From Bacteroidota bacterium (GTDB lineage: Bacteria > Bacteroidota > Bacteroidia > UBA7662 > CANHCV01), in contig CANMVY010000006.1 of the NCBI GenBank assembly GCA_947501265.1, forward strand, positions 64,005 to 116,267: a stretch of DNA of 52,263 bases. The letters run 5' to 3'. A model generated the notes under the pieces. The model did no database searches. It was not told where the DNA came from and was given only the letters and a program-made list of their open reading frames with translations. A program made the translations under genes and the position numbers. This document shows, one piece after another, positions 10,345-48,611 of the stretch. Numbering within the stretch: the stretch's first letter is position 1; each line of letters begins with the position of its first letter.

Positions 10345-13300
10345 TTGATTAAAAAAATAATTGAGTACTCCATCCAAAAACCTTGGATGGTACTTCTCAC
10401 CATTCTAGCCTGGGTGGTGATCGGTGCCTGGGGAATTGCAGGCATCAATGTTGACGCTGTTCCCGACATTACCAACAATCAAGTACAAGTTGTAACTGTT
10501 GCACCCTCAGCTTCTGCGGAAGAGGTAGAACGGTTCATTACCTATCCTCTTGAGCTCACTTTAGGACATGTTCCCAACGTGGTGGATGTCCGCTCCATAT
10601 CTCGATTTGGACTATCGGTTATTACCATTGTATTTGAGGAAGATATTACGCAAGAGAAAGCCCGGTTCTGGGTTCAAGAAAGAATCAACGAAGCAGCTGA
10701 AAATATTCCAAACGGATACGGTAAACCTGGGTTGATGCCCGTTACAACAGGCTTAGGAGAAATTTTCCAATACACCATGCAAATCGCTCCCGGATTTGAA
10801 AACAGATACGATGCTGAAGATTTACGAACCATTCAAGACTGGATCGTAAAACGAAGAATGACTGGAATCGAAGGATTGGTGGAAGTTTCTAGTTTCGGAG
10901 GATTCTTAAAGGAATACGAAGTAGCTTTTGATCCCTCCAAAATGCAGTCCCTCGACGTTTCCATGGAAGATCTTCATCATGCTTTGGACCAAGCAAATCA
11001 AAGTCAGGGAGGAAGCTACCTCGAACAAGGTGATCGTGCGTGGTACTTAAGAAGCCCCGGACTCGTAAAAAGTTTGGAAGAAATTGAACAAATCCCCATC
11101 GCAACCCGCGGCCAAATCCCCGTTCAGGTAAAAGATATCGCCTCCGTTCGATTTGGACACGCTCCCCGATTTGGCGCCATGACCCAAGATGGAAAAGGCG
11201 AAGCCGTTGGTGGAATTACCCTCATGCTCAAAGGCGCCAATGCTTCGAAAACCATCGAAAAAATTGAAGCCCGAATTCAACAAATCCAAACCGAACTCCC
11301 CAAAGGCATCAGCATCAAACCATTTCTAAATCGAGCTAAACTCGTAGAAAAAAACATTGGAACCGTTCGAAACAACCTCATCGAGGGCGGATTAATCGTC
11401 GTTTTTGTCCTGATTTTCTTTTTGGGTAATGTCCGGGCCGGCCTCGCGGTCGCATCCATCATTCCTCTTTCGCTTCTTTTTGCGCTAGCTGGAATGCGGG
11501 TAATGAACGTATCTGCCAACCTCATGTCGTTGGGAGCCATTGATTTTGGAATCGTTGTTGACGGAGCAGTCGTCCTCATCGAAGCCATTGTTCACGTGAT
11601 TTTGTTCCGCAACCTTCGAGATGAATTGGAAGGCAATACCATTCCCAAAACCATTCAAGAAACTTCCGTCAAAATTCTTACTTCTGTATTATTCGGAGTG
11701 CTCATAATTTGGGTGGTTTTCCTTCCCATCCTTTCTTTGGAAGGAATCGAAGGGAAAATGTTTAAACCCATGGCCATTACCATGATGCTGGCCTTGTTGG
11801 GATCCCTCATTTTAACCGTTTGGTACTTGCCAGCGCTATCTTCCCTCCTATTCAAATCAGGAAAAATTTCAACCTGGAAGTTCTCTGAACGAATTCTGGA
11901 GAAAATTCAAAACGGATATCAACCCCTTCTTTTGAGCGCCCTTAAGAATTCAGGAAAAATGATTATTGGAGCCATCGTTTTATTTCTTCTATCCATTTTC
12001 GGATTTATGCAAATGGGTGGAGAATTTATCCCCACCTTGGAAGAAGGAGATTTAGCTATGCAGATGTCGGTTCCGCCGGGTACTTCCCTATCCCAAGTGG
12101 TGAAGATGAGCACCAAGGTAGAACAAACGCTGATGCGAAAATTCCCAGAAATTGAACACATTGTTTCGAAAATAGGAACAGCAGAAATCCCAACCGATCC
12201 CATGGCCGTGGAAGACGCCGATGTCATGATCATCATGCACGATAAATCTACCTGGACATCGGCACAAACCAGGGAAGAATTGGTTGAAAAAATGGAAAAG
12301 GAATTGGAGATTTTTCCCGGAGTTTCCTTTGAATTCACGCAGCCGATTCAACTCCGATTCAATGAATTGATGACGGGTTCCAAAGCCGATATTGCCATTA
12401 AAATATTTGGAGAAGATCCCGAAAAACTTAAATCCTTGGCCAACCAATTGGTAAAATCGGTCAAAAATTTACCCGGAATTGGCGATATCAAAGCCGAAAG
12501 AACCGATGGGCTACCCCAAAAATGGATTGAAGCTAATCCAGAGTTACTATCGTATTGGGGAATATCGCAACAGCAAGTCAATGAAGCCGTAAAAACCGCT
12601 TTTGCCGGACAAATGATTTCTCCGGTATACGAAGGTGAACGAAGGTTTGAATGGGTTGTACGATTGGATCCCGACCTCAAGCAGAACTTTCAATGGCAGA
12701 ACATCCCGCTTCGCAACGAAAGCGGAATCCTTGTCCCCCTAAGTGCTATCGCCCGTGAAAAGGAAACCGTTGGACCCATGCTCATTACTAGGGAAAATAC
12801 TAAAAAACGAATCGCAATTGGCGTTAACGTACGCGGAACCGATGTTGAAAAATTGGTAGAATCCATCCAGAAAAAGGTAAAAACAGAAATCTCTTTACCC
12901 AGCGGCTATCACATAGAATACGGTGGACAGTTTGAGAACTTGAAGGCTGCCAGCAAACGGTTGCAAATTGTTGTTCCAATTGCATTGGGCCTCATCATCA
13001 TCTTTTTGTATTTCGCTTTCCACCAATTTCGCCCGGCAATATTGGTTTTTACAGCCGTACCACTTTCTGCGATTGGAGGTGTAGCTACACTTTATTTGAG
13101 GGGAATGCCCTTTTCAATTTCGGCAGGGATTGGATTCATCGCCCTTTTTGGAGTAGCGGTATTGAATGGAATTGTTTTGGTAACCAGAGCTATTGAACTC
13201 ATTCACGATAAGAAACCATTAAAAATAGCCATTCAAGAAGCAGCTCAAAGCCGATTGCGTCCGGTACTCATGACGGCCATGGTGGCTTCGCTAGGTTTCC

Positions 13301-31253: not shown

Positions 31254-31680
31254 GGTTCTGAAAAGGTGTTTTGTAGACCTGTTTTGCACGAATGTTGTGA
31301 ACGAAAGTTGTGTATTCTTGGGAATACCACAGAATTCAAAAACATCTCAAATTCAACAAGTTACAACTCCGCATATCCACTTGTCATTAAAGCAATTCAT
31401 TGGGGGATTGATTTGCCTATGAGACAAGTTTATCCCCTATTCTGCTCCATTTAATAATCCTACATTGACAATTCAAGGTTCGAATGACATTAAGGTTATC
31501 TTGGAGTAATTTAGGGAATGAAATGTGTAATACTAAACCTCATAATAAGGCCTTGGAATAAGTATTCATTGGGGTAGAATAGTCAGTAAAATTACACATT
31601 GCACTACAATAAAAAATCGCAGGGAAAACAATGGATAGTAATGTACTACAGTACAAGGTTTGTAGTAAATCATAGTGAAC

Positions 31681-31882
31681 AAAAATGGCATTTAAATTAG
31701 ACCACATTTACTCATTCACTTTGCATTAAATGGTAGAAGGTTTGCTATGTATTATTAGTAACCGTTAAAAACGCGTTTTGGAGTATTTCAACTTACTATT
31801 TTGATGTATCGGAGGATAAGGTTTGCCTATGATTAAAATTGGTTTTTGAGACCTGATTTAATCACTTTATTCAAACGGCAAT
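31681..31882 (+). repeat. 200-bp direct repeat, copy 1
   Basis: Runs from AAAAATGGCATTTAAATT to TTCAAACGGCAAT and is aligned with 31928-32128 almost without gaps. The best kept blocks are TTTGCATTAAATGGTAGAAG, GCGTTTTGGAGTATTTC and ATTAAAATTGGTTTTT. The copies start 247 bp apart, with partly similar sequence before each, so the unit may be a longer tandem duplication that has drifted. Confidence 0.85.
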
Positions 31883-31927
31883 GTATAAGTGAAATATGTC
31901 AAGGGATAATGGTGAAACATCGTCTTC

Positions 31928-32128
31928 AAAAATGGTAATTAATTTGGACCTCTTTTACATATTCATTTTGCATTAAATGGTAGAAGGTTTGCTATGTAAT
32001 ATTCCTACTACTCAAAAATGCGTTTTGGAGTATTTCCGCTTAATTTTTTGATGTATTGGAAGATAAGGTTTGCATAGAATTAAAATTGGTTTTTTAGACC
32101 TGGTTTAAGTACTATATACAAACGGCAT
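31928..32128 (+). repeat. 200-bp direct repeat, copy 2
   Basis: Second copy of the element at 31681-31882, same orientation. Starts AAAAATGGTAATTAATTTGG and ends CAAACGGCAT. Shared blocks are interrupted mostly by point differences, so the duplication is old or under weak constraint. No long reading frame is conserved between the copies. Confidence 0.85.
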
Positions 32129-32248
32129 TTTTTTGAGTGTATTTAAGTGGTAAAAACTCAAATAACGATTACGAGAAATCACTAGATAAACGAGAGCAAA
32201 TTCATTATGCTTTAATTGCAATTATCACTTGCGAAAAAAGAAGACTAT

Positions 32249-32368
32249 TGCAGGGTGTGGCAAGTATTGGCTATGTGCTTAGTTTATTGATTTTATCCAT
32301 CGAGAAAACCTATTTTTCTTATGGCTTGATGTGCCTACGAATCCCTAATTCCCCAAGGGGAATTAAAT
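32249..32368 (+). repeat. Dispersed 120-bp repeat, copy 1
   Basis: Begins TTGCAGGGTGTGGCAAGTAT and ends GGGGAATTAAATG. It aligns with 33504-33625 over its whole length, with shared TTGGCTATGTGC, ATCGAGAAAA, GGCTTGAT and CCAAGGGGAAT blocks. The element has the look of a short family spread through the accessory region of this genome. Confidence 0.75.
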
Positions 32369-33307: not shown

Positions 33308-33970
33308 AATTAGGGCAATACAGGTAATTGGTTTTAGCAATTTATTCCTATACCTGGTCTGCTGAAGTTTGCAAGTTTTCCAATGCATATTTTACGTTGC
33401 TAGTAGCCTCGGTAATATCGGATACATTACCGAAAAAAATCTTTAAAGCCCTGCCCAAAGCGATCGATTATAGAAGAAATACGGCAAGATAAAAAAGCAG
33501 CCATTAGCAGGGCGTGGCGAGTGTTGGCTATGTGCCAAAAGAGTTTATTTTATCAATCGAGAAAAATGATTTCTTAAGGCTTGATTTACCTGCGTCTTTG
33601 CCAATATACGCCAAGGGGAATAAAATGGATTAAAAAATGATGCAACTACCTTCTTTGTACAGTTGTAAAATTTATAGCTTACCAAACTTTTGATAATTTG
33701 CAAATAATATGTAGATTTGAGAAATCTTGAAAAAAACACCAATTATCTCAATTTGGGCTGATTGTGAGAAGAAAAAAAGCGTTTTTTAAAGAGTTATGGG
33801 CAAGATGAATAAACATAGCGGTCAAACAAGAGAACCACCGAAAGACTGAATTGACTCATCTTAAGAGCATAAATATGCTGACAAAAAACAGTGGAGCCAA
33901 GAAAACCACTTAAAAAACAGCGAAGATTCTGAAAATCGATAAGAGTAGGAATAAAATAAATTAAATTAAA
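33308..33970. other. 663-base intergenic stretch with repeat copy and hairpin
   Basis: No supported gene. It contains a hairpin at 33410-33432 (CGGTAAT/ATTACCG) followed by an A-run, the second copy of the dispersed 120-bp repeat (33504-33625), and just before the next gene a leader (33930-33970) resembling the leader of the gene at 34652. Frames on either strand, such as 33545-33742 minus, run across the repeat and look spurious. Confidence 0.6.
33504..33625 (+). repeat. Dispersed 120-bp repeat, copy 2
   Basis: Begins TTAGCAGGGCGTGGCGAGTG and ends GGGGAATAAAATG, in the same orientation as copy 1 at 32249-32368, 1.25 kb away. The GC-richer GCAGGGCGTGGCGAGTGTTG core stands out in this AT-rich DNA. 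Confidence 0.75.
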
Positions 33971-36221: not shown

Positions 36222-37025
36222 CTACCTTTTTCGATAGAATCCGCTGTAGGGCCCACAATTATTTCCATAGAAACAATCGTAAATACGAATTTCCAATTGT
36301 CCTGGATTAAATGTAAAATTTATGTGACAAGTTCCCTCTTCAGAATAATTTGCAACTGCAGAACCCGTAAGGTAAGCAGATCCATCAAAACCCTCTCCTG
36401 TACAAATTTCATTAACTTTGGTAGAAAAGTGAAATTTGACTTCTCCATCAGATGAAGGGCCTGTGATATTTACAAAATTTCCGAATTCATCATAGTAAGT
36501 TCCGCTCCAATTTGAGTAATCATTTGATTGAGCTGGTTCCAAATTTTCTTCTTCCATCGGAACCTCTTCTGTATTTTGATTTTCATTGGAATTTAACGAT
36601 GTCGGATTTTCAATAGGAATTGGTTGAACATCATTTGAATGATTGTCATGTGATAAATTAACCTGTGAAGTAATAAAATAAACAATGCCAAGGAGAATCA
36701 AGGCTCCAATTCCAAAGTACCATTGGGTGTACTTTTTATTACCAACATTTTGATTATTGAGGGCTAAAGGACTTTCTAATTTTTCTTTGTTTGGTTGATG
36801 ATCTAAAAAATTTGGAGTTTTGGGGGGAATTTGCTTTTCGTTCGTAAGTTGGGGCGAATTGTTATTTTTGAAAATTTCTTGAAGAGAAAAAATATTTTTC
36901 GCTTTTGTCCATTCCGTTAGGCCTTCGTGCCACACCAATGTTTCTTCAGTAATCGGTAATTTTGAAAACTCTTCAAAAGAAAAAGGGCCCTTTTGAACTT
37001 TATTATCTACGTAATAGTATTTCAT
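36222..37025 (-). CDS. GYF_2-domain membrane protein, divergent to the kinase operon
   Basis: A 267-residue protein with an N-terminal GYF_2 (DUF4339) domain (residues 1-48: YYYVDNKVQKGPFSFEEF to TLVWHEGLTEWTKAKNI), an Asn/Pro/Gln-rich cytoplasmic linker, one membrane segment near residues 103-122 (YFGIGALILLGIVYFITSQV), an acidic linker (EEVPMEEENLEPAQ) and a 90-residue C-terminal beta-rich domain with paired cysteines (EICTGEG, GTCHINF, YDCFYGNNCG). GYF-type domains bind proline-rich peptides; here it may sense a partner in the cytoplasm. The start is ATG 37025 (a TTG lies directly before it). It points away from the kinase operon and shares the 411-base control region with it. Confidence 0.8.
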   Translation of the reverse strand: MKYYYVDNKVQKGPFSFEEFSKLPITEETLVWHEGLTEWTKAKNIFSLQEIFKNNNSPQLTNEKQIPPKTPNFLDHQPNKEKLESPLALNNQNVGNKKYTQWYFGIGALILLGIVYFITSQVNLSHDNHSNDVQPIPIENPTSLNSNENQNTEEVPMEEENLEPAQSNDYSNWSGTYYDEFGNFVNITGPSSDGEVKFHFSTKVNEICTGEGFDGSAYLTGSAVANYSEEGTCHINFTFNPGQLEIRIYDCFYGNNCGPYSGFYRKR

Positions 37026-37436
37026 CAATTATTTATTAAACGAAATTTTATTCCCTTAACACAAACAAAAATATCAAAAAAATGAAGTAATTAAATTTTT
37101 CCTTTTTTTAAAGTCATTTCTGTTATTTTTATTTCTTTAGTAAAATTAAAAAATCCTGCTATTCTTTATAAATCAAGCTAGCCTGATTCTAAACCCGTTT
37201 TAGTGGCTATCGCTTCTTCATCTACAAAAAAACTGTACCCCAAAAGAATTGGATCAAATAAAATCTTTACCTATTCTTCTCTTTAAGATATTTCTACCTA
37301 ATTATCATTGGCAAAATCCAATGAATTTAATTCCAAACGTCAATTTTTTTCTTTATTGTATTTTTATTAAAGGCAATTTACATGGAAAAACAATGGTGAT
37401 TTGTTTTATATTTGCCTATGAAAGAAAGTCGATATA
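37026..37436. other. 411-base divergent control region between GYF_2 gene and kinase operon
   Basis: Very AT-rich and without a supported gene; the frame at 37249-37437 plus has no recognisable content and ends at the kinase start. It must contain the promoters for both directions. A -7 box for the operon is listed separately. No clear operator palindrome was seen. Confidence 0.6.
37407..37414 (+). promoter_or_regulatory. Putative -7 element of the kinase/FHA operon
   Basis: TATATTTG matches TAnnTTTG exactly and lies 22 bases before the ATG at 37437. The upstream TTG element is not recognisable at 17-19 bases, so the promoter may be weak or activator-dependent. Confidence 0.5.
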
Positions 37437-38819
37437 ATGATTGGAAATCAGATTTCAAATTATGAGATAAAATCGCTTATTGGCGAAGGTGGTATGGGTT
37501 CAGTTTTTTTAGCTGAACATACCCAAGTGAATAGAAAAGTTGCGATTAAGGTATTGTTTTCTAAATACCTAAAAAATGAAGAAATTAAGCAAAGATTCAA
37601 AAACGAAGCCTCTACATTAGCACATTTAAAACATCCAAATATTGTAAGTCTATACGACTATCTGGAAGATGAAAATGGAATGTTTTTAATTTTGGAATAT
37701 GTTGAAGGTAAACAACTTGATGATCAAATTTCTCAAATAACAGGTCCAATGCCTGAAGAAAATGCAATTCCATTGATTAAAAAGATTCTTTCCGCATTTT
37801 CTTACGCCCACGAAAAAGGAATTGTTCACAGAGACATTAAACCAGCCAACATCATTGTTACAAAGGATAATGATGTGAAAATATTGGATTTTGGAATTGC
37901 CAGAATTTTAGGAGATGGCATGCAGGGAATGACAAAAACTGGAACCCAAATGGGCACAGTTTTTTACATGGCACCAGAACAAGTTAAAGGTAAGAAAGCA
38001 GATTTTCGGTCGGACATTTATTCCCTAGGAATAACTTTCTATCAAATGTTAACTGGAATTAATCCTTATTCCAATTTCAATACTGAATACGAAGTTTACA
38101 ACAGTATTGTTAATGAAGACCTACCTCCCGCAAATGAAATTTATCCTGGAATAACCAAAAAAATGGTTCTCATTCTGAAAAAGGCATTGTCTAAAAATCC
38201 TGATGAAAGGTTTCAAACCTGTTCTGAGTTTATTCATGCCATAGATGCAGAAGTGGTAAATGAATCCGGCCCTCCTGAAATCCTTTCTAAAAGCCCTTCT
38301 GAGAGCCCTCCTGAAATCCTTTCTGAGAGCCATCCTGATATCTCAAACAAGATTCAAAATAAATCCTCAATTGATCCACTTTATTCCATTTTTTTCTCCA
38401 TTATTGGAATTTTGTCATCCTTGGCTTTCGGATTGGTCGGCCTTGTAATTTCAATTGTTTCAAGAATTATTTATTTCAAATCGAAAAAAATAGGAGAAGG
38501 GCATTCTTATTTTCAAAAGAATTTAAAAACGTTCTCAGCTGCTAAATATTTATCGATTTTTGCATTAATTATTTCAATTATTGCTACTATTTTAAATTGT
38601 TATACATATTTAAATGAAAAAGACCGAATTTTGCAATACAACGAAACCATTTATTCAACTGAAGATTCTGTAACTGAAATGCCAGCTGAGGAACCAATGC
38701 CAGCTGAGGCTGCTGAAGCTCCTAGAGCAGAAGAGTTCACTGAAGACGAACCGTCAGAAGAAGACTTATATGGACAAGATTCAACTGCAACTTTTGAATA
38801 CGAAGACTACTCACACTGA
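37437..38819 (+). CDS. Membrane Ser/Thr protein kinase with CD225-like C-terminal region
   Basis: A 460-residue Hanks-type kinase. All catalytic marks are present: GEGGMGSV (residues 16-23), Lys38 in VAIKVL, HRDIKPAN (His131, Asp133), LDFGIAR and MAPEQVKG. After the kinase domain (to about residue 275) comes a repeat-rich linker built of PPEILS/SPSES units. Two membrane segments follow (around 322-346 and 375-395) with the spacing and basic loop (IIYFKSKKIGEGH) of CD225-like proteins. The C-terminal tail is acidic (MPAEEPMPAEAAEAPRAEEF) and ends EYEDYSH. It is the first gene of an operon of nine that also encodes a PP2C phosphatase and four FHA proteins, so its products are likely read by those FHA domains (inference). 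Confidence 0.92.
   Translation: MIGNQISNYEIKSLIGEGGMGSVFLAEHTQVNRKVAIKVLFSKYLKNEEIKQRFKNEASTLAHLKHPNIVSLYDYLEDENGMFLILEYVEGKQLDDQISQITGPMPEENAIPLIKKILSAFSYAHEKGIVHRDIKPANIIVTKDNDVKILDFGIARILGDGMQGMTKTGTQMGTVFYMAPEQVKGKKADFRSDIYSLGITFYQMLTGINPYSNFNTEYEVYNSIVNEDLPPANEIYPGITKKMVLILKKALSKNPDERFQTCSEFIHAIDAEVVNESGPPEILSKSPSESPPEILSESHPDISNKIQNKSSIDPLYSIFFSIIGILSSLAFGLVGLVISIVSRIIYFKSKKIGEGHSYFQKNLKTFSAAKYLSIFALIISIIATILNCYTYLNEKDRILQYNETIYSTEDSVTEMPAEEPMPAEAAEAPRAEEFTEDEPSEEDLYGQDSTATFEYEDYSH
38272..38340 (+). repeat. In-gene microrepeat encoding PPEILS/SES units
   Basis: CCTCCTGAAATCCTTTCT occurs twice (38272-38289 and 38308-38325), with AGCCCTTCTGAGAGC-like units between and after. It encodes the linker between kinase and membrane domains and is a probable site of slipped-strand length change. 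Confidence 0.75.
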
Positions 38820-38861
38820 TTTATAACTAATCACTTTAGATATTTTTAAAATATTAAACAA

Positions 38862-39665
38862 ATGAAATACTGCTTATTTTTTATTTTTTCATTTAATATA
38901 TATTGTATTTTTGCTCAGAAAAACAATAAGGATGCCTTAAATTTAAAAAATAAAATTAAACTACAAGATTCAATATTATCCATTAATTCTAGAACAATTG
39001 ACTCCCTAACAAAAAACAATATTAGATTAACGCTTCAAAATGATTCACTTCGAAATCAAATAAGTCGTTTTCAGTTTGAAAATAACTTGGTTTCGGTGGG
39101 TGGACAAATGTGGTGTAACAACAACCTAAAAGTGAAAGAATTAAATGATGGAACACCAATTCTTTATGCAAACACACCAGAAAAATGGGATTCCGCCTTT
39201 AATGGTAAAATACCTGCGTATTGCTTCCACAAAAACGATACTTCGGGGTCTTTTGGCTACCTCTACAATTATTACGCCCTCAATTCAGGCAAATTAGCAC
39301 CAAAAGGCCTTAGAATTCCCAACACGAAAGATGCAGAAGAATTAATTCAATTTACCAACGCTATTAACGATGGAAAAGGTGCTATCCTATTGAAATCAAA
39401 TGCTTCTTTTTCCGATGGGTTACCCTTATGGAAAGAAAAAGGTCAAGATATTTTCAGAATGAATATTAGACCCTTAGGTTTTAGATTGAACGATAGAAAT
39501 GAATGGTATATTGGAAATAAAATTTATTTTTGGTGCCTAAGTAATTCAGCTAAGATTTTCCATGCTTTGGTATTGACTGAAATAAATGAAGAGCCCTTTC
39601 TTATGGAAAAAGATCTAGAAGTACAAAATAGCAATTATGGACTTTATGTTCGATGTATAAAATAA
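38862..39665 (+). CDS. Exported FISUMP-domain protein with coiled coil
   Basis: A 267-residue protein with an N-terminal signal segment (YCLFFIFSFNIYCIFAQ), a coiled-coil stretch (residues 28-70: KNKIKLQDSILSINSRTI, NDSLRNQISRFQFEN) and a FISUMP (Fibrobacter major paralogous) domain from about residue 78: VGGQMWCNNNLKVKELNDG, YCFHKNDTSGSFGYLYNYYA, LAPKGLRIPN, NIRPLGFR, ending NYGLYVRCIK. Such domains have a C-type-lectin-like fold and are found in Bacteroidota surface proteins. Its place as second gene of the kinase operon suggests an extracytoplasmic partner or ligand-binding component of the system (inference). Confidence 0.8.
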   Translation: MKYCLFFIFSFNIYCIFAQKNNKDALNLKNKIKLQDSILSINSRTIDSLTKNNIRLTLQNDSLRNQISRFQFENNLVSVGGQMWCNNNLKVKELNDGTPILYANTPEKWDSAFNGKIPAYCFHKNDTSGSFGYLYNYYALNSGKLAPKGLRIPNTKDAEELIQFTNAINDGKGAILLKSNASFSDGLPLWKEKGQDIFRMNIRPLGFRLNDRNEWYIGNKIYFWCLSNSAKIFHALVLTEINEEPFLMEKDLEVQNSNYGLYVRCIK

Positions 39666-39675
39666 AATAAAAATT

Positions 39676-40335
39676 ATGAATGGTTTTAAAAAATGCAAAA
39701 ATGGACACTTTTTCAAAGAAGATTTAAGTCATTGTCCATACTGTCCAGGAGAAAGTGTAGACGCTTCAAAAAACTTGGCAAATAATGATTTAAATAAAAC
39801 AATGGTTGCTGGTGCTGTTACTTCCCATGGTACAGACCACGCCAGTACAGAAGTCTTTGGAACACCTAGCTCAAGTTCAAATCAAACAAAAGTTTTTGGA
39901 TCTGGAAGTGCACAATTGCAAAAAAAAGATTTATCTAGAACTTTTATTGGTGGCATTACCGATTCAGATCCACAAAACACGGGCGATGGTACAAGCTTGG
40001 AACCTTCTATTCCCCGAGCCTCAAGAAGAATTGTTGGTTGGATCCTTTCATATACCCTTGATCCTATGGGGGTAGATTATCGCCTTTACGAAGGAAATAA
40101 CACCATTGGACGAGAACCAAGTAATTCCATTACCATTTCAAAAGATAGTACCATTTCTGGAAAACACGCCAATATTCTTTATAAAAAAGGTAGTTTTTGG
40201 ATAAAAGATGAAATGGCAGCCAACGGAACTTTTATCAACGACGAAGAGATTGAAATTGAAAAGGCTTATCCTTTAAAAGACGGTGATACCATTCGAATGG
40301 GATCAACAACCTTCAGGTTCAAATCTAGTGAATAA
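39676..40335 (+). CDS. Zinc-ribbon + FHA adaptor with four T-x-[VI]-x-G motifs
   Basis: A 219-residue cytoplasmic protein. A zinc-ribbon-like N-terminus (Cys7, His11, Cys20, Cys23: CKNGHFF...HCPYC) is followed by a low-complexity region with four spaced threonine motifs TMVAG (42), TEVFG (58), TKVFG (71) and TFIGG (89), and then an FHA domain from about residue 140 (NTIGREPSNSITISKD, SGKHANI, NGTFIN). The FHA residues for phosphothreonine binding (Gly-Arg, Ser-x-x-His, Asn-Gly) are intact. The regular threonine motifs look like kinase targets that could be bound by FHA domains of the neighbours, making it a scaffold (inference). It lies 10 bases after the FISUMP gene. Confidence 0.85.
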   Translation: MNGFKKCKNGHFFKEDLSHCPYCPGESVDASKNLANNDLNKTMVAGAVTSHGTDHASTEVFGTPSSSSNQTKVFGSGSAQLQKKDLSRTFIGGITDSDPQNTGDGTSLEPSIPRASRRIVGWILSYTLDPMGVDYRLYEGNNTIGREPSNSITISKDSTISGKHANILYKKGSFWIKDEMAANGTFINDEEIEIEKAYPLKDGDTIRMGSTTFRFKSSE

Positions 40336-40350
40336 GGAAAAAAGAAAACC

Positions 40351-41919
40351 ATGAAAAACTTTTATCTCCATTTAAAGTCGACGAAATCTATTCCTACTGT
40401 TTTTTGTTTATTTTTAATACTCTTTTCAAACCAATCATTTTCTCAGAAAAATGAATTGGATGTTAGGAAATTAAATACACAGAATTTTCCTGAGGTTACT
40501 GGTAAATTATGGGTTAGAGATCCTGAGGGTGTGAAAACCGAACACATTCAGTTTTTTGAAGAAGATAAACCTATTATGGTTAATTTCGGTTCTTTTGAAA
40601 AAGTCGATTCTTTTGCCAAAAACAAATCCATATTATTCTTGGTCCGTAATTCGGGAAACCAAGAAGAAATGAATTGGTATAAAAATGTTTTAATTAATGC
40701 GATAAAAACAGGAGACATAAAGAATGGAGATAAAATTGCGGTTATCGGATTTAGTTGCCTCATCAATAAACAAATACTTTTTCCAAATAAGCTCAATTTT
40801 ACCGATAACACTAACGAATTAATTTCAAGGGTTAATGAAATTTCAAACAAAGGCAAAAAAGAAATCTTTGGTCGAGTTCAAACTCATATCGCAATCAATG
40901 AAGCACTTCAATTATTAGAGGCTCAAAATTTAAACATTCCCACAGGAATATTTGTGATTTCAGATGATCAATCGATGCCCCCATTATTGACTGGAGAATT
41001 GCCTGGGCCTCGTTCAAAAAGGTTGAATGTTCCCATTTATGGAATATCCTTCCATAAAAAAAGCACTTTTTACGACATCAAGGAACTTTGTATTCAAACC
41101 TATGGTCGGTATTACTCTAATACTTCAAATAAAGTTGAATTAGCATCAAAAGAAATCAACCTTTATTTATCAAATTTTATTGAAAGACATTCTGGATTAT
41201 TTTACCCGTTTACTTATCAATCTACCTTTGAAAAAGATGGTAAAAATCATACGGTTAAAATTGATTCTAAAGAAGGTCAATCAGGTTTCAGTTTGGCAGT
41301 TCCATCTAAGAATATTATCGAAATAATTTCAGACAATCCAATCATTTCTGGATCTTTTTTCCTGTTATTTTCTGGAGTAGCCATTATTCTTTTCAATATA
41401 ATCAAAAGGAATAAAATTAAAAAAAATGAACTAGAATTGCAACAAAAGTTGCAATTTGAAGAAATGGATAAACAGCAAAAAAATGCTGAACATAAACTCT
41501 CCAATCAAGAAACCGAACTTCAAAAACTGAAAGAGGAAGAGCATCGAAAAGAAGAATTACTGCGACTTCAAAAGGCAAAGGAAATCAAGCAAAAAGAAGA
41601 AGAGGTTCAACTTAACAAAATGCTTGAGAGAGGGAATTTGCCTTGGTTTGAGTTTCGTTTTGGCGAAGAAACTGGTAGTTATCAAATTCAATCCCCACGG
41701 ATAAGTGTGGGAAGAGACGCGGGGAATACCTGGGTCATCAATCATCCAACTGTCTCTAGGAATCATTTTCAACTCACGTTCCACAATTACTCTTATTCCA
41801 TAAAAGATTTAGGTAGTTCTAATGGGTTGTATGTGAACGGTGATCGTGTTTCTGAAATAGAATTAAAACATGGAGACTGTATTCAAATTGGTGAAATTAC
41901 TTTATCATTCCACATTTAA
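40351..41919 (+). CDS. vWA-like - TM - coiled coil - FHA membrane protein
   Basis: A 522-residue protein. N-terminal signal/anchor (VFCLFLILFSNQSFSQ), a periplasmic von Willebrand A-like domain (about 85-290: KSILFLVRNSGNQEE, GDKIAVIGFSC, HIAINEALQLLEAQN, IFVISDD), a membrane segment near 335-355 (SGSFFLLFSGVAIILFNII), a Glu/Gln/Lys-rich coiled coil (360-425) and a C-terminal cytoplasmic FHA domain (RISVGRDAGNTWVINHPT, SRNHFQL, SSNGLYVNG). The vWA MIDAS motif DxSxS is replaced by RNSGN, so metal-dependent binding is doubtful. The layout can pass a signal between envelope and cytoplasm via FHA binding to phosphoproteins (inference). Confidence 0.82.
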   Translation: MKNFYLHLKSTKSIPTVFCLFLILFSNQSFSQKNELDVRKLNTQNFPEVTGKLWVRDPEGVKTEHIQFFEEDKPIMVNFGSFEKVDSFAKNKSILFLVRNSGNQEEMNWYKNVLINAIKTGDIKNGDKIAVIGFSCLINKQILFPNKLNFTDNTNELISRVNEISNKGKKEIFGRVQTHIAINEALQLLEAQNLNIPTGIFVISDDQSMPPLLTGELPGPRSKRLNVPIYGISFHKKSTFYDIKELCIQTYGRYYSNTSNKVELASKEINLYLSNFIERHSGLFYPFTYQSTFEKDGKNHTVKIDSKEGQSGFSLAVPSKNIIEIISDNPIISGSFFLLFSGVAIILFNIIKRNKIKKNELELQQKLQFEEMDKQQKNAEHKLSNQETELQKLKEEEHRKEELLRLQKAKEIKQKEEEVQLNKMLERGNLPWFEFRFGEETGSYQIQSPRISVGRDAGNTWVINHPTVSRNHFQLTFHNYSYSIKDLGSSNGLYVNGDRVSEIELKHGDCIQIGEITLSFHI

Positions 41920-41934
41920 AAGCAATAAAACGAA

Positions 41935-43392
41935 ATGAAATATACAAATAATTCAAATTCACATGTTGGGCATGTCCGAAATGCAAATGAAGATCATTTT
42001 GGAGAATTACAAACTAAAAATGGTCATTTGTTTGTTGTTTGTGACGGTATGGGTGGTCACGTTGGAGGTGCGCAAGCGTCAAAAATTGCAGTAAATAGCA
42101 TCTTCGATTTTTTTAATCGAGAAGAATACGACAATATCATTCAAGCTATTGATCATGCTTTTGCATATGCAAACGAACAAATTTTTGCATCAGCTTTAAA
42201 TAATGCAGAATTAAAAGGAATGGGCACTACTGCCGTAATCTTACTGATTAAAGGAGATGCGTGTTTCTTTGGGCATGTTGGTGACTCTAGATTATACCTG
42301 CGCTCAAATGGTAAATTAAATCGTATTACAAAAGACCATTCCTATGTTCAAAATTTGGTTAATTCAGGAATCATCGATGATGATGAAGCTGAAAATCACC
42401 CAAATAAAAATCAAATATTACAAGCCCTAGGAATTTCCTCTTCAGTTAAAGGTACCATTTGTCAAGCGCCTATTTTACCTAAAGCTGGAGATATGTTTTT
42501 ACTATGTTCGGACGGTTTGAACGGCATGGTAAAAGACCAAGTCATTGAAAAATTAATGCAAGAGAATACCTTGCAAGTAACTACAGAAAATTTAATTACT
42601 GCCGCTTTGAATGAAGGTGGGAACGATAATGTTACTGTTTCTTTGGTGTTAATTGAGGAAAGCCCACATACTGTTTCAAGCTTCCATCATTTCAATCCAA
42701 CAAAGAAATCAAAACAAGATGATTTTTCAGCAACCCAAAAAATTGAAGGAAAAACACCTAAACCAAAAAAGAAATTAAAACTGCCCCTAACCATTGGATT
42801 ATTTTTACTTCTAATTACATCTGCTATTCTTTTTATATTTTTAAATAAAGATCAAAGCGTTATTCAATCTCATGTAAAGAGGTTAAATAAACAAGAACTA
42901 GAAGAATATTTATGCAACAATATTGAAGATATCAAAGAAGGAGATACTGTAAATTTTGAATCTGGCAAAATCGTTAATCTACTTTGTGAAAAAGAGAAAA
43001 TCACCTTCGTTGTTAAGGATAGCGTAATTGTTGAAATTAAAAAAGAAAAAATTATAGATGTAATTCCTAAAGATCCTACAAAAAAAGATCCAACTACCGC
43101 TACTGAAGGTGATAAAATAAAAATAAACCCAACTGAACCAAAGACAACCGGCAAAATTGATTCATCAAGATTAAAACAAGTTACAAAAGAAGAAAAACCA
43201 AATATACACCTGGTAAAAAAGGGGGAAACACTAAACAAAATAAGTGCTGATTTAGGAATTTCAAAAGAGGATTTAATCAAATTGAATGTTGATTCAAATA
43301 AAAATCTTGACAAAACCCAAAGACAAAATTTAGAAAAAGAAAAAATAGCCATTGGAATGAAACTTATTATTCCTTCTAAAAAAATTAAATGA
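41935..43392 (+). CDS. PP2C-type Ser/Thr phosphatase with TM segment and periplasmic LysM
   Basis: A 485-residue protein. The PP2C domain (1-240) is intact: VRNANEDHFGEL, VVCDGMGGHVGG, KGMGTTAVILL, FGHVGDSRLYL, LLCSDGLNGMV and EGGNDNVTVSLV, with all metal-binding aspartates. Then come a basic linker, a membrane segment near 283-304 (LTIGLFLLLITSAILFIFL), a periplasmic region with a KDPTKKDPTTATEGDK linker, and a C-terminal LysM domain (VKKGETLNKISADLGISKED...IGMKLIIPS) that should bind peptidoglycan. It reverses the action of the operon's kinases and could sense the cell wall (inference). Its last 4 bases overlap the second kinase gene. Confidence 0.9.
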   Translation: MKYTNNSNSHVGHVRNANEDHFGELQTKNGHLFVVCDGMGGHVGGAQASKIAVNSIFDFFNREEYDNIIQAIDHAFAYANEQIFASALNNAELKGMGTTAVILLIKGDACFFGHVGDSRLYLRSNGKLNRITKDHSYVQNLVNSGIIDDDEAENHPNKNQILQALGISSSVKGTICQAPILPKAGDMFLLCSDGLNGMVKDQVIEKLMQENTLQVTTENLITAALNEGGNDNVTVSLVLIEESPHTVSSFHHFNPTKKSKQDDFSATQKIEGKTPKPKKKLKLPLTIGLFLLLITSAILFIFLNKDQSVIQSHVKRLNKQELEEYLCNNIEDIKEGDTVNFESGKIVNLLCEKEKITFVVKDSVIVEIKKEKIIDVIPKDPTKKDPTTATEGDKIKINPTEPKTTGKIDSSRLKQVTKEEKPNIHLVKKGETLNKISADLGISKEDLIKLNVDSNKNLDKTQRQNLEKEKIAIGMKLIIPSKKIK

Positions 43393-44198
43393 GGCGAATT
43401 AATAACATAGAACTTGTTGAAGTATTAAATTCAGGGGGAACGGCTACGGTTTACCTTGGGGTTGATTTATATACTGGGATGCCCGTAGCTGTAAAAGAAC
43501 TAAAAGCAAGTCTGTTTAAAAGTGATTTCATTCGAAATAAGTTTATTGAGGAAGCCAATCAATATTTGTATTTGGATCATCCCAATATTGTAAAACTAAA
43601 AGATTTCATCATTAAGGACAATAGCCATTACCTGGTTATGGAGTATGTAGAAGGTGAAAACCTGTATGATTACATGAAAAACATCACCGGACCACTACCC
43701 ATTCAAAATGTGGCATTATTGTTAAATGAAGTTCTTGGAGCACTCGACTATGTCCATCAAAAAGGTTTGGTACATTTAGATATTAAGCCATCAAACATCA
43801 TGTTGTCATCAAATAACTCAGTTAAATTAGTAGACTTTGGAATTTCAAAAGATAAAAATGAGGATTCATCTAAAAAACTAATGGGAAGCCCTTCATACAT
43901 GAGTCCAGAACAAGTTGAAGAAAAAGAATTAAATTCTCAATCTGATATTTACTCAACTGGAGTTACCATGTTTGAATTGCTCACAGGAAAATTACCGTTT
44001 CAATCTTGCAATACAAGAGAAGATTTATTTAGAGCAATCATTGAAAATAAAATGCCACGATTGAAAGCAATTTATCCCATTGATGAAGCTCATGAAGAAG
44101 AAATAAATCGAATATTTCTAAAGGCTACCTTAAAAAACAAACAAGAGAGATATCAGTCATCTGAAGCCTTTCAATTGGATATAATTCAATTTATATGA
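43389..44198 (+). CDS. Compact Ser/Thr kinase with HLD loop and degenerate glycine loop
   Basis: A 269-residue protein that is all kinase domain, with no membrane segment. Lys36 in VAVKEL, DFGISK, SPEQVEE and the SDIYSTGVTMFELLTG helix are canonical. The catalytic loop reads VHLDIKPSN (His129, Leu130, Asp131), so it is a non-RD kinase, and the glycine loop is NSGGTATV (residues 14-21), lacking the first and third glycines of GxGxxG. The catalytic Asp and Asn remain, so activity is possible without activation-loop control. It overlaps both neighbours by 4 bases. It may be phosphorylated by, or scaffold for, the first kinase of the operon. Confidence 0.88.
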   Translation: MRRINNIELVEVLNSGGTATVYLGVDLYTGMPVAVKELKASLFKSDFIRNKFIEEANQYLYLDHPNIVKLKDFIIKDNSHYLVMEYVEGENLYDYMKNITGPLPIQNVALLLNEVLGALDYVHQKGLVHLDIKPSNIMLSSNNSVKLVDFGISKDKNEDSSKKLMGSPSYMSPEQVEEKELNSQSDIYSTGVTMFELLTGKLPFQSCNTREDLFRAIIENKMPRLKAIYPIDEAHEEEINRIFLKATLKNKQERYQSSEAFQLDIIQFI

Positions 44199-45568
44199 AT
44201 TACAAAATAATTAAAGTAGGTCGCGCAAAAGACAACGACATCATTTTATCTGATAAATCGGTTTCAAGATACCATTGCGAGTTTTTTTTCGATAATGATG
44301 GAAACATATTTCTTACCGACAAAAATTCATCCAATGGGACTTTTGTAAATGGTAAAAAAATTTCAGGTTCAGTTCAATTGAATCAAAATGACATCGTAAA
44401 ACCGGGTTTAGACTCTCCTATTCGGTGGAAAGACTTTTCTTCCAATTCCCAACAACAAAATCATTCTTCAATTGGTCCAATAGACAATCAGGAAATCTCA
44501 GAACCATTGAATGAACTAAAAATTGAAGAAAAAGGCTCTTTAAAATCTATTATAAAAACCATAAGTATTACCTTATTGGTGATTGCCGCTCTAATCGGAA
44601 TTATTTTTTTTATCAATGAAAGCGATGATGGTCGTAAAAATTCAAATGCAAATCAGACCTCAGAAATCGATCATTCCGACAATCATTCTAATTCAATTGA
44701 TCCAGAAAATCCGAATGGCTCCACAAACTCTAAAGATTCACCGACTCAAAATGATCAAGAGCCTATTGTTGATCCAAACACATCAGATGAAACACAAAAT
44801 AAACCCAAATTCCCAGAGGCGAATCAAGAGATCCGCTATGATTTCAGCTGTTTAAATGACAAAAATGATTATGGAACAACTGCTGTCCTCGGTGAGCTCG
44901 AGAAATTAGGATCCGAAATCACCAATGAAATAGGACCGAAAATAACAATCAGGGACGAAGAAATGGTTGGTAATAATTTATTGCGCGATTGCAAAAGAAA
45001 ATTTACTTTCATCAACAAAGGAGAGGAAATCGAAAATCTAAGAATTTTATTAAACCAATTGACAAATCAAATTAAAAATCCTAAAGGATTTGCATATGAA
45101 ATTTATTTGATAAGTTCAAAAGACTTAAATGCATTTACTGCTGGCGGAAAAATCTTTGTAACCACTCAAATGTATCAATTTTGTAATTCAAACGACGAAT
45201 TGGCATGTATCATTGGCCATGAAATTTATCATAATGAATTAGGTCATATTAAAGAACAAATAAAAAAGGAAAAAATTTTTACTGAAGAAGTTGCAGTTTT
45301 AGCCCAAATCGCTAGCATTCCTTTCGGACAAAAAAAAGAAACCCATTGCGATTTAACTGGGATTGATTTAGCGATTGCAGCTGGCTACAATGGATGTGTA
45401 AATATCAATTTATGGAACCGAATGCAAAAAGAATCCAAAGAAGGCGAGTACAACGTGTTTGAAAATTTATTGAGATCTCATCCTTATTCCACAAAAAGAG
45501 CACAATGTTCAAGCAACCATATATATAATAATTATGGAATAAATTGCCATTCGAATAAAACAAATTAA
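44195..45568 (+). CDS. FHA - TM - M48-like periplasmic metalloprotease
   Basis: A 457-residue fusion. The cytoplasmic FHA domain is at residues 1-75 (IIKVGRAKDNDIILSDKS, SRYHCEFFF, SSNGTFVNGKKI). A membrane segment spans about 120-140 (ISITLLVIAALIGIIFFI), followed by a long Asp/Asn/Ser-rich linker (about 145-205) and a metalloprotease domain with GHEIYHNELGH (His342, Glu343, His346) plus a probable third ligand in KKETHCDLTGIDLAIAAGY, matching the ExxAD region of M48 peptidases (periplasmic relatives: BepA, LoiP). This joins phosphothreonine recognition inside to proteolysis outside. It starts inside the second kinase's stop (ATGA), indicating coupled synthesis. Confidence 0.87.
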   Translation: MNYKIIKVGRAKDNDIILSDKSVSRYHCEFFFDNDGNIFLTDKNSSNGTFVNGKKISGSVQLNQNDIVKPGLDSPIRWKDFSSNSQQQNHSSIGPIDNQEISEPLNELKIEEKGSLKSIIKTISITLLVIAALIGIIFFINESDDGRKNSNANQTSEIDHSDNHSNSIDPENPNGSTNSKDSPTQNDQEPIVDPNTSDETQNKPKFPEANQEIRYDFSCLNDKNDYGTTAVLGELEKLGSEITNEIGPKITIRDEEMVGNNLLRDCKRKFTFINKGEEIENLRILLNQLTNQIKNPKGFAYEIYLISSKDLNAFTAGGKIFVTTQMYQFCNSNDELACIIGHEIYHNELGHIKEQIKKEKIFTEEVAVLAQIASIPFGQKKETHCDLTGIDLAIAAGYNGCVNINLWNRMQKESKEGEYNVFENLLRSHPYSTKRAQCSSNHIYNNYGINCHSNKTN

Positions 45569-45576
45569 TTTTATTA

Positions 45577-46194
45577 ATGGCTATATCAAAAAAAATTAAG
45601 TCAAAAGTATTAATTACGGCTATCACCACTTTAATTTCAATGTTGGTTCTAGCATTGAATTTCAAAAGTCCGGAAATTAAACAAATAGATTCTTTCAGAA
45701 TTCAGTCTTACAATAAAAGTGTAATCAAATCTACCACAAACATTGAACTACAAAATGCTAATTGGTATACCATTCAGGGAAAAGATATTCACTTTAAAAT
45801 AATCTACAAGGAAAAAATTGTCGCAATTGTTAGCCCAATTTCTTCATTAAAAATACCCAAAAATTCAATAGCCAAATTAAATGTAGAAATTAGCTTTTTC
45901 CCAGATTCGTTAAAAAATCACTTGGCGGATTTTTTAATCAAGGATTCAATAGACATAAAAGTAATTATTAATGGGAAATTGACTTTTTTGGGAATTCCAT
46001 TCCATAGTGAAGAAAATTCCTTGATTAACGTTAAAACTTTGTTTGAGTCGATAGTTTCAAATTTTTTCAAAAAAAATAATAGCATTTTAAACTTCGCAAA
46101 TAACGAAAAGATGCAAGTTTCTAAAAAAGATAACTTCATCTTTCCTAAACAGTTTAAAAGCCATAAAACATTTGCTCAAGTTCACATAAAATAA
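45577..46194 (+). CDS. Membrane-anchored LEA-2/WHy-like protein (tentative)
   Basis: A 205-residue protein with an N-terminal signal anchor (VLITAITTLISMLVLAL) and a periplasmic beta-rich domain. The pattern IELQNANWYTIQGKDIHFK, IIYKEKIVAIVSPISSLKIP, KNSIAKLNVEISFFPDSL, ending VIINGKLTFLGIPF, resembles the LEA-2/WHy fold (a seven-strand Ig-like domain found in desiccation and envelope proteins). The match is by eye and not certain. It stands 8 bases after the FHA-protease gene and 35 before the ABC fusion gene, so it belongs to the operon, perhaps as an envelope partner or protease substrate. Confidence 0.7.
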   Translation: MAISKKIKSKVLITAITTLISMLVLALNFKSPEIKQIDSFRIQSYNKSVIKSTTNIELQNANWYTIQGKDIHFKIIYKEKIVAIVSPISSLKIPKNSIAKLNVEISFFPDSLKNHLADFLIKDSIDIKVIINGKLTFLGIPFHSEENSLINVKTLFESIVSNFFKKNNSILNFANNEKMQVSKKDNFIFPKQFKSHKTFAQVHIK

Positions 46195-46229
46195 AAAACT
46201 TCTCTCCACAATTCAATTTATTAGGCCAC

Positions 46230-48611
46230 ATGAGTAATTCTATTCCTTTGAAATTTGGTTTTATTTGTAATGATCAATTGGTTACTAAATTTGCATTTGT
46301 CCCAGGTAAACCATCCGAAGTAGTTGTAGGAAGGGATAGCTCTAATCAAATTCAACTTCCAATTGATTTTATTTCAAAACAGCATGTTCAATTAGTTTTT
46401 GATTCAAATTCAAATTTATTTGTAATTGATTTAGACAGTTCAAACGGAACTTTTCTAAATGATCAAAGAATAACGTCAGGTGTTCCATATCAAGTTAGAA
46501 ATTCAGATAAACTTAGATTAGCAAATCAAAATGGAGTTTTTCTAGTCAACAATCCTGATACCTACCCAAAGGGTCACTTTTTTCATGATAAAAATATTGA
46601 AACTAGAAACAACTTTAAACAAACGAATATTCTAGAAAAATTTAAAAACAAGAATAAAATTTCAATTGGTAGAAATGAAGAAAATGACGTCATTTTAGCA
46701 CACTCCTCCATAAGTAGAGTTCATGCTAGTATTGAAAAGAGAAGCGATTCTGAATTTATTATTACTGATGAAGGATCTACAAATGGAACATTTGTAAATG
46801 GCAAAAGGATCAGTGGCCATCTCAAAATTTCACCCATGGATAATATCATCATAGGGCGATTTCAACTAACATTAAATGGTATATATAAAGATCTTTCAAG
46901 GGAAGTTGCGATTCGGGCAGAACGAATTGTAAAACAATTTGACAATGGGAAAATTGGCTTACACGAATGCACATTGGAAATTCCAAGTAAATCATTGTTA
47001 GCAGTAATGGGGCCATCAGGTTGCGGAAAATCTACTTTATTAAAAGCGCTAAATGGAGATGCTCCCCCAACTAGTGGGAATGTTTATATCAGTGGTTTAG
47101 AACTAAACAACCATTATGATTACCTGAAGACACAAATAGGTTATGTTCCGCAGGATGACATTGTTCATAAAGATTTAACTGTCCAACAAGCGTTATTTTA
47201 CTCTGCCAAACTACGACTACAAAATACAAATGATGAATTTATTCAACAAAAAATAAATCAGGTTATGGATGATTTGAAAATCAGCCATATACGTGAAAAT
47301 TTAGTCGGAAAAATTAGCGGTGGACAAAGAAAGCGAGTATCCATTGCAGTAGAAATTCTTACAGATCCATTGATTCTTTTTTTGGATGAGCCAACTTCTC
47401 CTCTTGATCCACAAACCATCGAAGAATTTCTAACCATTTTGAGGAATTTATCCAATAAGGGAACTACCGTGATTATGGTGACCCATAAACCAGAGGACCT
47501 CAACTATATGGATTCTGTTATTTTTATGGCCGAGGGTGGCCATAAAGTATATCATGGGGATCACCATTCTTATTTAAGTCATTTCAAAGTAGAGGATACC
47601 ATTAAGGTTTATTCTCAACTGGCTATGCCCAATGCCTTAAAATGGATTAATCAGCAAAAAGAAAATCATCCAAAATTAGGAGAAATTGAAATTTCAAAAG
47701 AGAGGAGAACCTACCACAGTGCAAATTTGATTTCCCAATTTTGGTGGTTAACCCTGCGCTACTTTAATATCAAATTAAATGATCGTTTAAATACCTTTAT
47801 CCTTCTTGGTCAAGCTCCAATTATTGCTATACTCATTTGTTTGATTTTTGATCACATTTCTATGTCTGTTCCCTTTCTATTGGCAGTTAGTGCGGTTTGG
47901 TTTGGCACAAACAATGCGGCTAGAGAAATTGTGGGTGAGGCACCTATTTTCAAACGCGAACGAATGTTTAACCAAGGTATTTTCCCATACATTTTTTCAA
48001 AAATTACCGTTTTGGGCACCTTTGCTGCTATTCAATCTTTCCTTTTTACACTGATTATTTCAATTAATTTTTCAAATACAGATCCTCAATGGCAATCGCC
48101 ATTTCATACCTTTTTATGGATGCTATTCATTTCCATCTCAGCATCATTATTTGGTTTATTTATTTCTGCCATTGTTAACACTACAGAAAAGGTAATGACC
48201 CTCGTTCCAATTGCATTGATTCCTCAAATAATGCTTGCAGGTATCGTTGCAAAAATATCTTCTCCATTAGTTGAATTTTTAAGTTATTTCACCTTGTCGA
48301 GGTGGGGTAATGAAGGTTTTTGCATCATTCAAAAAAACATAAAAATGGAAATGCCCATTGTTCAAGATAGCATTTCAAATTCTGTTTCACCTGCAGTAGA
48401 AATTCAACCTACTAATCAAACAAGTTTTGTAACAAAAAATGCCATTGAACAATTAAAAAACTGCTTTCATGATAGTTACGAGGATTTATTTGGATTGAAT
48501 TGGGCTTATACATTAAACTTAGATCTGATCATTGTTAGTATCATCTCTATTTTGTCCCTATCTGGTATATATTTCTCTTTGAAAAGGAAAGATGCAATAA
48601 AAATTAAATAA
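46230..48611 (+). CDS. FHA-FHA-ABC exporter fusion (Rv1747-like, ABCG/ABC-2 type)
   Basis: A 793-residue half-transporter. FHA1 (about 30-85: VVVGRDSSNQIQLPID, SKQHVQL, SSNGTFLN), a linker with possible phospho-sites (ETRNNFKQTNILEKF), FHA2 (about 143-205: ISIGRNEENDVILAHS, SRVHASI, STNGTFVNG), then the ATPase: Walker A GPSGCGKST (261-269), signature KISGGQRKRVS, Walker B LILFLDEPTSPLDP, H-loop VTHKPED. An ABC-2 membrane domain with six predicted segments follows (from about 520). The order matches mycobacterial Rv1747, an exporter controlled by FHA binding to its phosphorylated linker. Here it is the last gene of the operon and likely the regulated output. The cargo is unknown. Confidence 0.92.
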   Translation: MSNSIPLKFGFICNDQLVTKFAFVPGKPSEVVVGRDSSNQIQLPIDFISKQHVQLVFDSNSNLFVIDLDSSNGTFLNDQRITSGVPYQVRNSDKLRLANQNGVFLVNNPDTYPKGHFFHDKNIETRNNFKQTNILEKFKNKNKISIGRNEENDVILAHSSISRVHASIEKRSDSEFIITDEGSTNGTFVNGKRISGHLKISPMDNIIIGRFQLTLNGIYKDLSREVAIRAERIVKQFDNGKIGLHECTLEIPSKSLLAVMGPSGCGKSTLLKALNGDAPPTSGNVYISGLELNNHYDYLKTQIGYVPQDDIVHKDLTVQQALFYSAKLRLQNTNDEFIQQKINQVMDDLKISHIRENLVGKISGGQRKRVSIAVEILTDPLILFLDEPTSPLDPQTIEEFLTILRNLSNKGTTVIMVTHKPEDLNYMDSVIFMAEGGHKVYHGDHHSYLSHFKVEDTIKVYSQLAMPNALKWINQQKENHPKLGEIEISKERRTYHSANLISQFWWLTLRYFNIKLNDRLNTFILLGQAPIIAILICLIFDHISMSVPFLLAVSAVWFGTNNAAREIVGEAPIFKRERMFNQGIFPYIFSKITVLGTFAAIQSFLFTLIISINFSNTDPQWQSPFHTFLWMLFISISASLFGLFISAIVNTTEKVMTLVPIALIPQIMLAGIVAKISSPLVEFLSYFTLSRWGNEGFCIIQKNIKMEMPIVQDSISNSVSPAVEIQPTNQTSFVTKNAIEQLKNCFHDSYEDLFGLNWAYTLNLDLIIVSIISILSLSGIYFSLKRKDAIKIK

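Follow-up and report, generated by a model that had tools for sequence, protein, structure and literature searches.

Here we report that nine adjacent genes of a Bacteroidota bacterium (GTDB lineage Bacteroidia; UBA7662; CANHCV01) may form a horizontally spread, self-contained phosphothreonine/FHA circuit controlling an ABCG-type envelope exporter. The genes (g1 to g9) lie at positions 37437-48611 of the stretch of DNA analyzed here, a window of 52,263 nucleotides (assembly GCA_947501265.1, contig CANMVY010000006.1, positions 64,005 to 116,267 of the forward strand). We regard this reading as about evenly balanced between right and wrong; it is built on what can be read from the sequence, namely the composition of the operon, the predicted topology of its products, their intact catalytic and phosphate-binding motifs, conserved linkage and genome-wide exclusivity. 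A check of the open reading frames (ORFs) in the window recovered all nine predicted genes on the + strand, with 4-base overlaps at 43389/43392 and 44195/44198 and gaps of 8-42 bases elsewhere, and the ORFs and Pfam domains together confirm the co-directional operon described in an initial annotation of this DNA. Pfam places Pkinase in g1 and g6, PP2C in g5, FISUMP in g2, Peptidase_M48 in g7, ABC_tran and ABC2_membrane in g9, and five FHA domains, one each in g3, g4 and g7 and two in g9. The vWA domain of g4 and the LEA_2 domain of g8, which the initial annotation had also listed, fell below the Pfam threshold and are backed instead by a predicted fold and by homologues, respectively, while the LysM of g5 is weak yet over its cut-off. 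In a hydropathy scan, a single transmembrane (TM) helix splits a cytoplasmic from a periplasmic half in g4, g5 and g7; g8 has an N-terminal helix, g1 and g9 have several, and g3 and g6 have none.

The signaling parts of the operon form a closed set, in agreement with the kinase-phosphatase-FHA system originally proposed. Whole-genome searches of the source genome (2.33 Mb, 26 contigs, 99.99% complete) returned two Pkinase, five FHA and one PP2C_2 matches, every one of them within the operon. Two sampled genomes of the same genus contain no Pkinase or PP2C_2 match and also lack the exporter and the protease, and none of 18 sampled same-order genomes has a Pkinase match over the Pfam cut-off. 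As the kinases and PP2C_2 occur in this genome only in the operon and in neither same-genus relative, the operon appears to import Hanks-type Ser/Thr signaling into a lineage otherwise without it. GC content at third codon positions (GC3) is 0.20-0.29 in the operon genes versus 0.35-0.47 in 15 host genes of the same window, consistent with the AT-rich setting noted at the outset. Horizontal acquisition is likely, and is the simplest reading of the low GC3 and of the missing genes in the same genus. The sister contigs (G001:C204 and G002:C44) stop near the insertion point, so that no junction or empty site is readable, and the "tRNA-proximal" placement first suggested is weak, the nearby tRNA-Asp ending 6.5 kb upstream.

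The gene set is conserved as a unit in other genomes. Among 295 genomes of the class searched with the exporter, four others have close homologues, and two of these, from different families, hold the cassette on sufficiently long contigs (loci L043 and L044). Extending the scan to some 85,000 species genomes gave 80 loci, onto which all nine proteins were mapped. The set recurs in conserved order on nine or more further Bacteroidota contigs, which span several families; the order [FISUMP]-ZnFHA-vWA/FHA-PP2C-kinase-(FHA)M48-LEA-2-FHA/ABC is seen at L049, L050 and L053-L056, while the cassette is fragmented by contig ends at L048, L051, L052 and L059 and rearranged at L067, L068 and L070. Around the exporter, M48 genes were found at 22 of 28 Bacteroidota loci and LEA-2 genes at 19 of 28, versus 3 of 52 and 2 of 52 in other phyla. 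Cassette proteins are about 20-70% identical across loci, and pairwise distance matrices for seven of them at seven loci are correlated (r = 0.60-0.93), the pattern predicted for genes that travel together. This ordered recurrence in unrelated genomes exceeds chance, and the conserved-synteny check proposed in the initial annotation, which would have been failed by scattered homologues, thus favors a conserved unit.

A smaller core of M48, FHA-ABC and LEA-2 genes is present in Muricauda, Allomuricauda, Flavivirga and others (L060-L062, L065, L066 and L079), and the same core accompanied by a PP2C and a kinase in Ignavibacteria-like genomes (L078 and L084). At L060, L061, L062, L065 and L079 the core is followed by an apparent extracytoplasmic function (ECF) sigma factor, a membrane protein (possibly an anti-sigma factor) and, at most of these loci, a large kinase. 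When the unassigned ORFs (90 aa or longer) were clustered, no recurring partner emerged in full cassettes; the clusters comprised ORFs antisense to the exporter gene, a large secreted protein encoded near three loci, and genes peculiar to the Muricauda-like or Ignavibacteria-like variants.

The exporter itself, g9 (46230-48611), provides the closest link to a known system. Pfam orders it as two N-terminal FHA domains, a nucleotide-binding domain (NBD) and an ABC2 membrane domain in one polypeptide, which is the architecture of Rv1747 of Mycobacterium tuberculosis; in both cases a Ser/Thr kinase is encoded in the same operon. Its FHA domains match the solved FHA domains of Rv1747 weakly by sequence. 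Rv1747 shares an operon with the kinase PknF, which phosphorylates it in vitro and modulates it (PMC3908365); Rv1747 has been proposed to export phosphatidylinositol mannosides (PMC5549992). Its FHA module condenses upon phosphorylation by PknF, the PP2C phosphatase PstP reverses this, and Rv1747 forms nanoclusters in cells (reviewed in PMC9312465). Unlike Rv1747/PknF, the operon adds a second kinase, a PP2C, a Zn-ribbon FHA adaptor, and vWA-FHA, FHA-M48, LEA-2 and FISUMP proteins, and serves a Gram-negative envelope. The initial annotation, which knew of no described system with this gene set, had overlooked this precedent, in which the exporter architecture and the link to a kinase are the same (PMC3908365). 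We found no description of the combined set in open-access papers, and the operon looks like a previously undescribed signaling cassette built on a known exporter type.

Both kinases are of the Hanks Ser/Thr type. The first, g1 (37437-38819), has C-terminal membrane helices and intact HRD, DFG and VAIK motifs, and a 12-nt tandem repeat at 38269-38338 codes for PPEIL/SES-like repeats in its juxtamembrane linker. The second, g6 (43389-44198), is soluble and carries HLD in place of HRD, as do its eight orthologues (9/9 copies; L048, L049, L050, L053-L056 and L059), whereas HRD is present in the other cassette kinases whose catalytic loop could be read; by sequence, HLD is a family-specific non-RD signature of the soluble cassette kinase. 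Against the Stk1/PknB PASTA kinase model NF033483 the two score 313.5 and 246.3 bits, under the curated cut-off of 450, and no PASTA repeat matched in either (Pfam, NCBIfam), which places them outside that family. Additional kinases, up to four, frequently follow the exporter, and three or four are arrayed downstream of it at L048, L049, L050 and L053. This variation in kinase number while the rest of the cassette is constant suggests interchangeable input kinases.

The phosphatase g5 (41935-43392) has a cytoplasmic PP2C domain, a linker, a TM helix at residues 285-303 and a periplasmic tail with the weak LysM match. It scores 246.8 bits on the Stp1/IreP model NF033484, above the curated cut-off of 230, and the acidic PP2C motifs are invariant in an alignment of homologues. 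LysM was detected in only 2 of 14 PP2C homologues, so that wall sensing by LysM, as first envisaged, does not extend to a general principle of the cassette. Just before the membrane the linker reads TQKI in the window, STQQF in close relatives and TQxF in four; the resemblance of TQxF to the repeats of g3 described below is suggestive only.

Those repeats lie in a small soluble protein, g3 (39676-40335), which comprises a Zn-ribbon-like region (C7, H11, C20 and C23 invariant), a Thr-rich linker with T-x-V-F repeats, among them STEVFG and QTKVFG, and an FHA domain. The motif T-x-[VIQ]-[FI]-G occurs nine times in 11 g3-type linkers, whereas 1000 shuffles gave 0.15 on average and at most 2, a test whose significance is somewhat overstated because the motif was picked after inspection of the sequences; its density is 3.7 per 1000 aa in the g3-type protein versus 0.04 in background ORFs, and 8 of 10 g3 homologues contain T-x-[VI]-F. 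In GarA, the ETTS motif continues as VF and its phosphothreonine binds the protein's own FHA domain. Like GarA and OdhI, g3 is small and soluble, with a Thr motif of similar T-x-V-F pattern upstream of its FHA domain, and phosphorylation at ETTS is what switches GarA (PMC5448819). The g3 linker is accordingly a candidate phospho-switch that, judging by the motif, may work as in GarA/OdhI. In contrast to those proteins, g3 carries the motif several times and bears a Zn-ribbon-like region at its N-terminus, and no link to 2-oxoglutarate dehydrogenase was seen; it scores 29.3 bits against an OdhI model cut-off of 200 and falls outside OdhI proper. The FHA domains of g3, g4, g7 and g9 all retain the G-R, S-x-x-H and N-G residues.

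The remaining membrane proteins face the periplasm. In g4 (40351-41919) a periplasmic vWA-like domain is followed by a TM helix at residues 330-348 and a cytoplasmic coiled coil and FHA domain. In support of the vWA fold, an AlphaFold model gave vWA-containing proteins as its top PDB matches (an inter-alpha-inhibitor heavy chain, a TFIIH subunit and alpha-2/delta). A canonical metal-dependent vWA domain was rejected: the metal-ion-dependent adhesion site (MIDAS) motif DxSxS is missing, with Asn for the expected first Asp in 10 of 10 homologues, so that the vWA-like assignment stands as a fold and not as a metal site. In g7 (44195-45568), a cytoplasmic FHA domain and a TM helix at residues 122-140 precede an M48 metallopeptidase domain that is periplasmic by topology, as initially proposed; its zinc ligands, HExxH and a downstream ExxxD (HEIYH and ETHCD in g7), are invariant in 26 of 26 homologues. 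At L043 the FHA-TM and M48 parts are separate genes on either side of a kinase (10845-11375 and 12192-13019), matching the halves of g7, and likewise at L054; this fusion/fission pair links the two parts. The LEA_2 profile matches 18 of 19 homologues of g8 (45577-46194), a membrane-anchored protein. Its relatives have two LEA-2-like beta domains (model predicted local distance difference test score, pLDDT, 84.5), several with a lipobox-like N-terminus, and Foldseek with this model returned only generic beta-sandwich matches, the best compact one being archaeal Af_0446 (TM-score 0.69). The FISUMP-domain protein g2 (38862-39665), with a signal-like N-terminus, is an accessory found in some relatives only.

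Since two kinases, a phosphatase, a multivalent soluble adaptor and three FHA membrane proteins are the kinds of part involved in Rv1747 condensation, we infer phosphorylation-driven clustering with a reset by PP2C. In this scheme, the membrane kinase g1 and the soluble kinase g6 would phosphorylate threonines of the operon's own proteins, chiefly in the T-x-V-F repeats of g3, and the five FHA domains would read these phosphosites, so that the g3 adaptor, g4, the g7 protease and the g9 exporter gather at the inner membrane, in the manner of phosphorylated Rv1747, until the g5 phosphatase dissolves the cluster. Cluster formation would activate or concentrate export, the periplasmic M48 domain would act on the product or on its partners, by processing or quality control, and the LEA-2 protein, as lipoprotein or anchor, would receive or chaperone a hydrophobic cargo (lipid, glycolipid or lipopeptide). 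That the cargo is hydrophobic is the most likely reading of the ABCG family and the LEA-2 partner, and is the weakest step. Sensing or docking in the periplasm is the probable role of the vWA-like domain and of the g5 tail. Envelope state may be the input and proteolysis a gated output, as put forward in the initial annotation. Slightly more tentatively, and just short of an even chance, we propose an undescribed mobile Bacteroidota cassette that installs writers, eraser, readers and outputs in lineages otherwise without Ser/Thr phospho-signaling, and a phosphorylation-driven FHA condensate in which exporter and periplasmic protease come together as a single switchable site of envelope export.

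Several observations weigh against such a scheme. The FHA-M48 fusion is a minority form, found in 9 of 26 M48 homologues, and the join was over-read in the initial annotation. At L067 and L068 the g3 homologue has no T-x-V-F motif. Relatives of the Zn-FHA and vWA-FHA proteins are not confined to the exporter: some genomes have them without it, as in G076, where they lie next to an alpha/beta hydrolase gene, and in G112, which has a similar neighborhood; these parts therefore form a reusable sub-module. The LEA-2 second domain has been lost here, and the operon copy may be partly decayed. At L076 a close homologue of the exporter lacks FHA domains, yet lies between M48 and LEA-2 genes, which suggests that those three are the functional core. 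A three-gene FHA-FHA-PP2C cluster without an adjacent kinase was also observed in one genus (L164 and L165, from G100 and G192).

A different function would be the production and export of a peptide or lipopeptide (bacteriocin-like or signal), with M48 maturing it, the ABCG protein exporting it and phosphorylation setting the timing. Exporter and periplasmic protease are the most conserved core, and the g9 NBD resembles bacteriocin-export and drug-export ATPases; however, no conserved small precursor was found among the clustered ORFs of at least 90 aa, shorter ORFs not having been tested, ABCG/ABC-2 exporters mostly carry lipids, glycans and hydrophobic molecules, and LEA-2 suggests a hydrophobic cargo. 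We consider this function unlikely.

A little less probable still is that the operon is a selfish or decaying acquired island without coherent function in this genome. The g8 protein, at 205 aa versus about 300 in relatives, is some 100 codons short and stops after the first domain; the second is deleted and not frameshifted, because there is no space for the remainder before g9. Sister genomes are without the cassette, and the flank at 31-36 kb is low-coding with repeated remnants. This AT-rich stretch includes a 216-bp direct repeat (82%) and an 82-bp repeat (76%) at 31665-32127, 32234-32315 and 33491-33572, and about 33422-33571 is an 80% match to sequence just past the tRNA-Asp of a sister genome; 31665-33572 looks like decayed mobile or repeated DNA. 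Against decay of the operon itself, the other eight ORFs have no visible truncation, their enzymes retain catalytic motifs, and the set is kept elsewhere at about 20-70% protein identity, which requires purifying selection.

An anti-phage or conflict module, whose kinases would sense infection and shut the host down in the manner of KKP or PD-T4-6 with exporter and protease as effector arm, is the least probable reading: g1 and g6 score high on PADLOC PD-T4-6 and mad6 kinase models, placement is patchy and AT-rich, and KKP is a precedent for defending kinase-kinase-phosphatase modules (PMC11341870), but some 20 PD-T4-6 models match both kinases, the score of 309.6 bits has no curated cut-off to be set against, there is no meaningful PADLOC match for the FHA, vWA, M48 or LEA-2 proteins, and the components are envelope parts with no nuclease, NTPase sensor or toxin domain. 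The kinase models of PADLOC are generic. KKP, a prophage module with a defense function (PMC11341870), shares with the operon two Ser/Thr kinases and a phosphatase in one mobile cluster, and differs in lacking the five FHA domains, exporter and protease; no prophage genes were recognized in the flanks scanned around the operon, where the contig ends at the window end. The threonine phosphorylation pathway of the type VI secretion system (T6SS; PpkA-PppA-Fha) likewise combines kinase, PP2C and FHA in post-translational control of an export machine, whereas here the kinases carry no FHA domain and the output is an ABC exporter and protease; a scan of the nine proteins and of flanking proteins revealed no T6SS structural gene, the rest of the genome not having been searched. 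TerY-P is a triad of vWA, PP2C and kinase. Sets associated with GAP1-N2 encode the same three together (PMC7159879), but the g4 vWA domain is membrane-bound, periplasmic, without MIDAS and fused to FHA, and the operon has no GAP1-N2 GTPase or Ter proteins. We therefore file the operon with the Rv1747/PknF-like kind of FHA-gated exporter, and not with the T6SS pathway, KKP or PASTA-kinase systems, whose defining features are missing or not established here.

Directly upstream, a GYF_2-domain protein is encoded divergently at 36222-37028 (- strand), with no recurring homologue among the cassette loci. The Bacteroidota -7 promoter consensus is TAnnTTTG, and a possible box of this type, TATATTTG, was read at 37407-37414 (+ strand), 23 nt 5' of the first start codon. 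A sigma-70 promoter scan gave fewer matches than shuffled sequence and was uninformative.

Bacterial Ser/Thr kinases are usually pleiotropic, and their substrates are hard to assign. With all detected Hanks kinases, FHA readers and PP2C_2 in one operon, every kinase-substrate-reader pair becomes testable together, and the cassette is movable as a unit. Exporters of the Rv1747 type are required for growth of M. tuberculosis in the host and are poorly understood; the operon described here would represent a Gram-negative build of such exporters, and would bring to them new candidate partners, the M48 protease and the LEA-2 lipoprotein.

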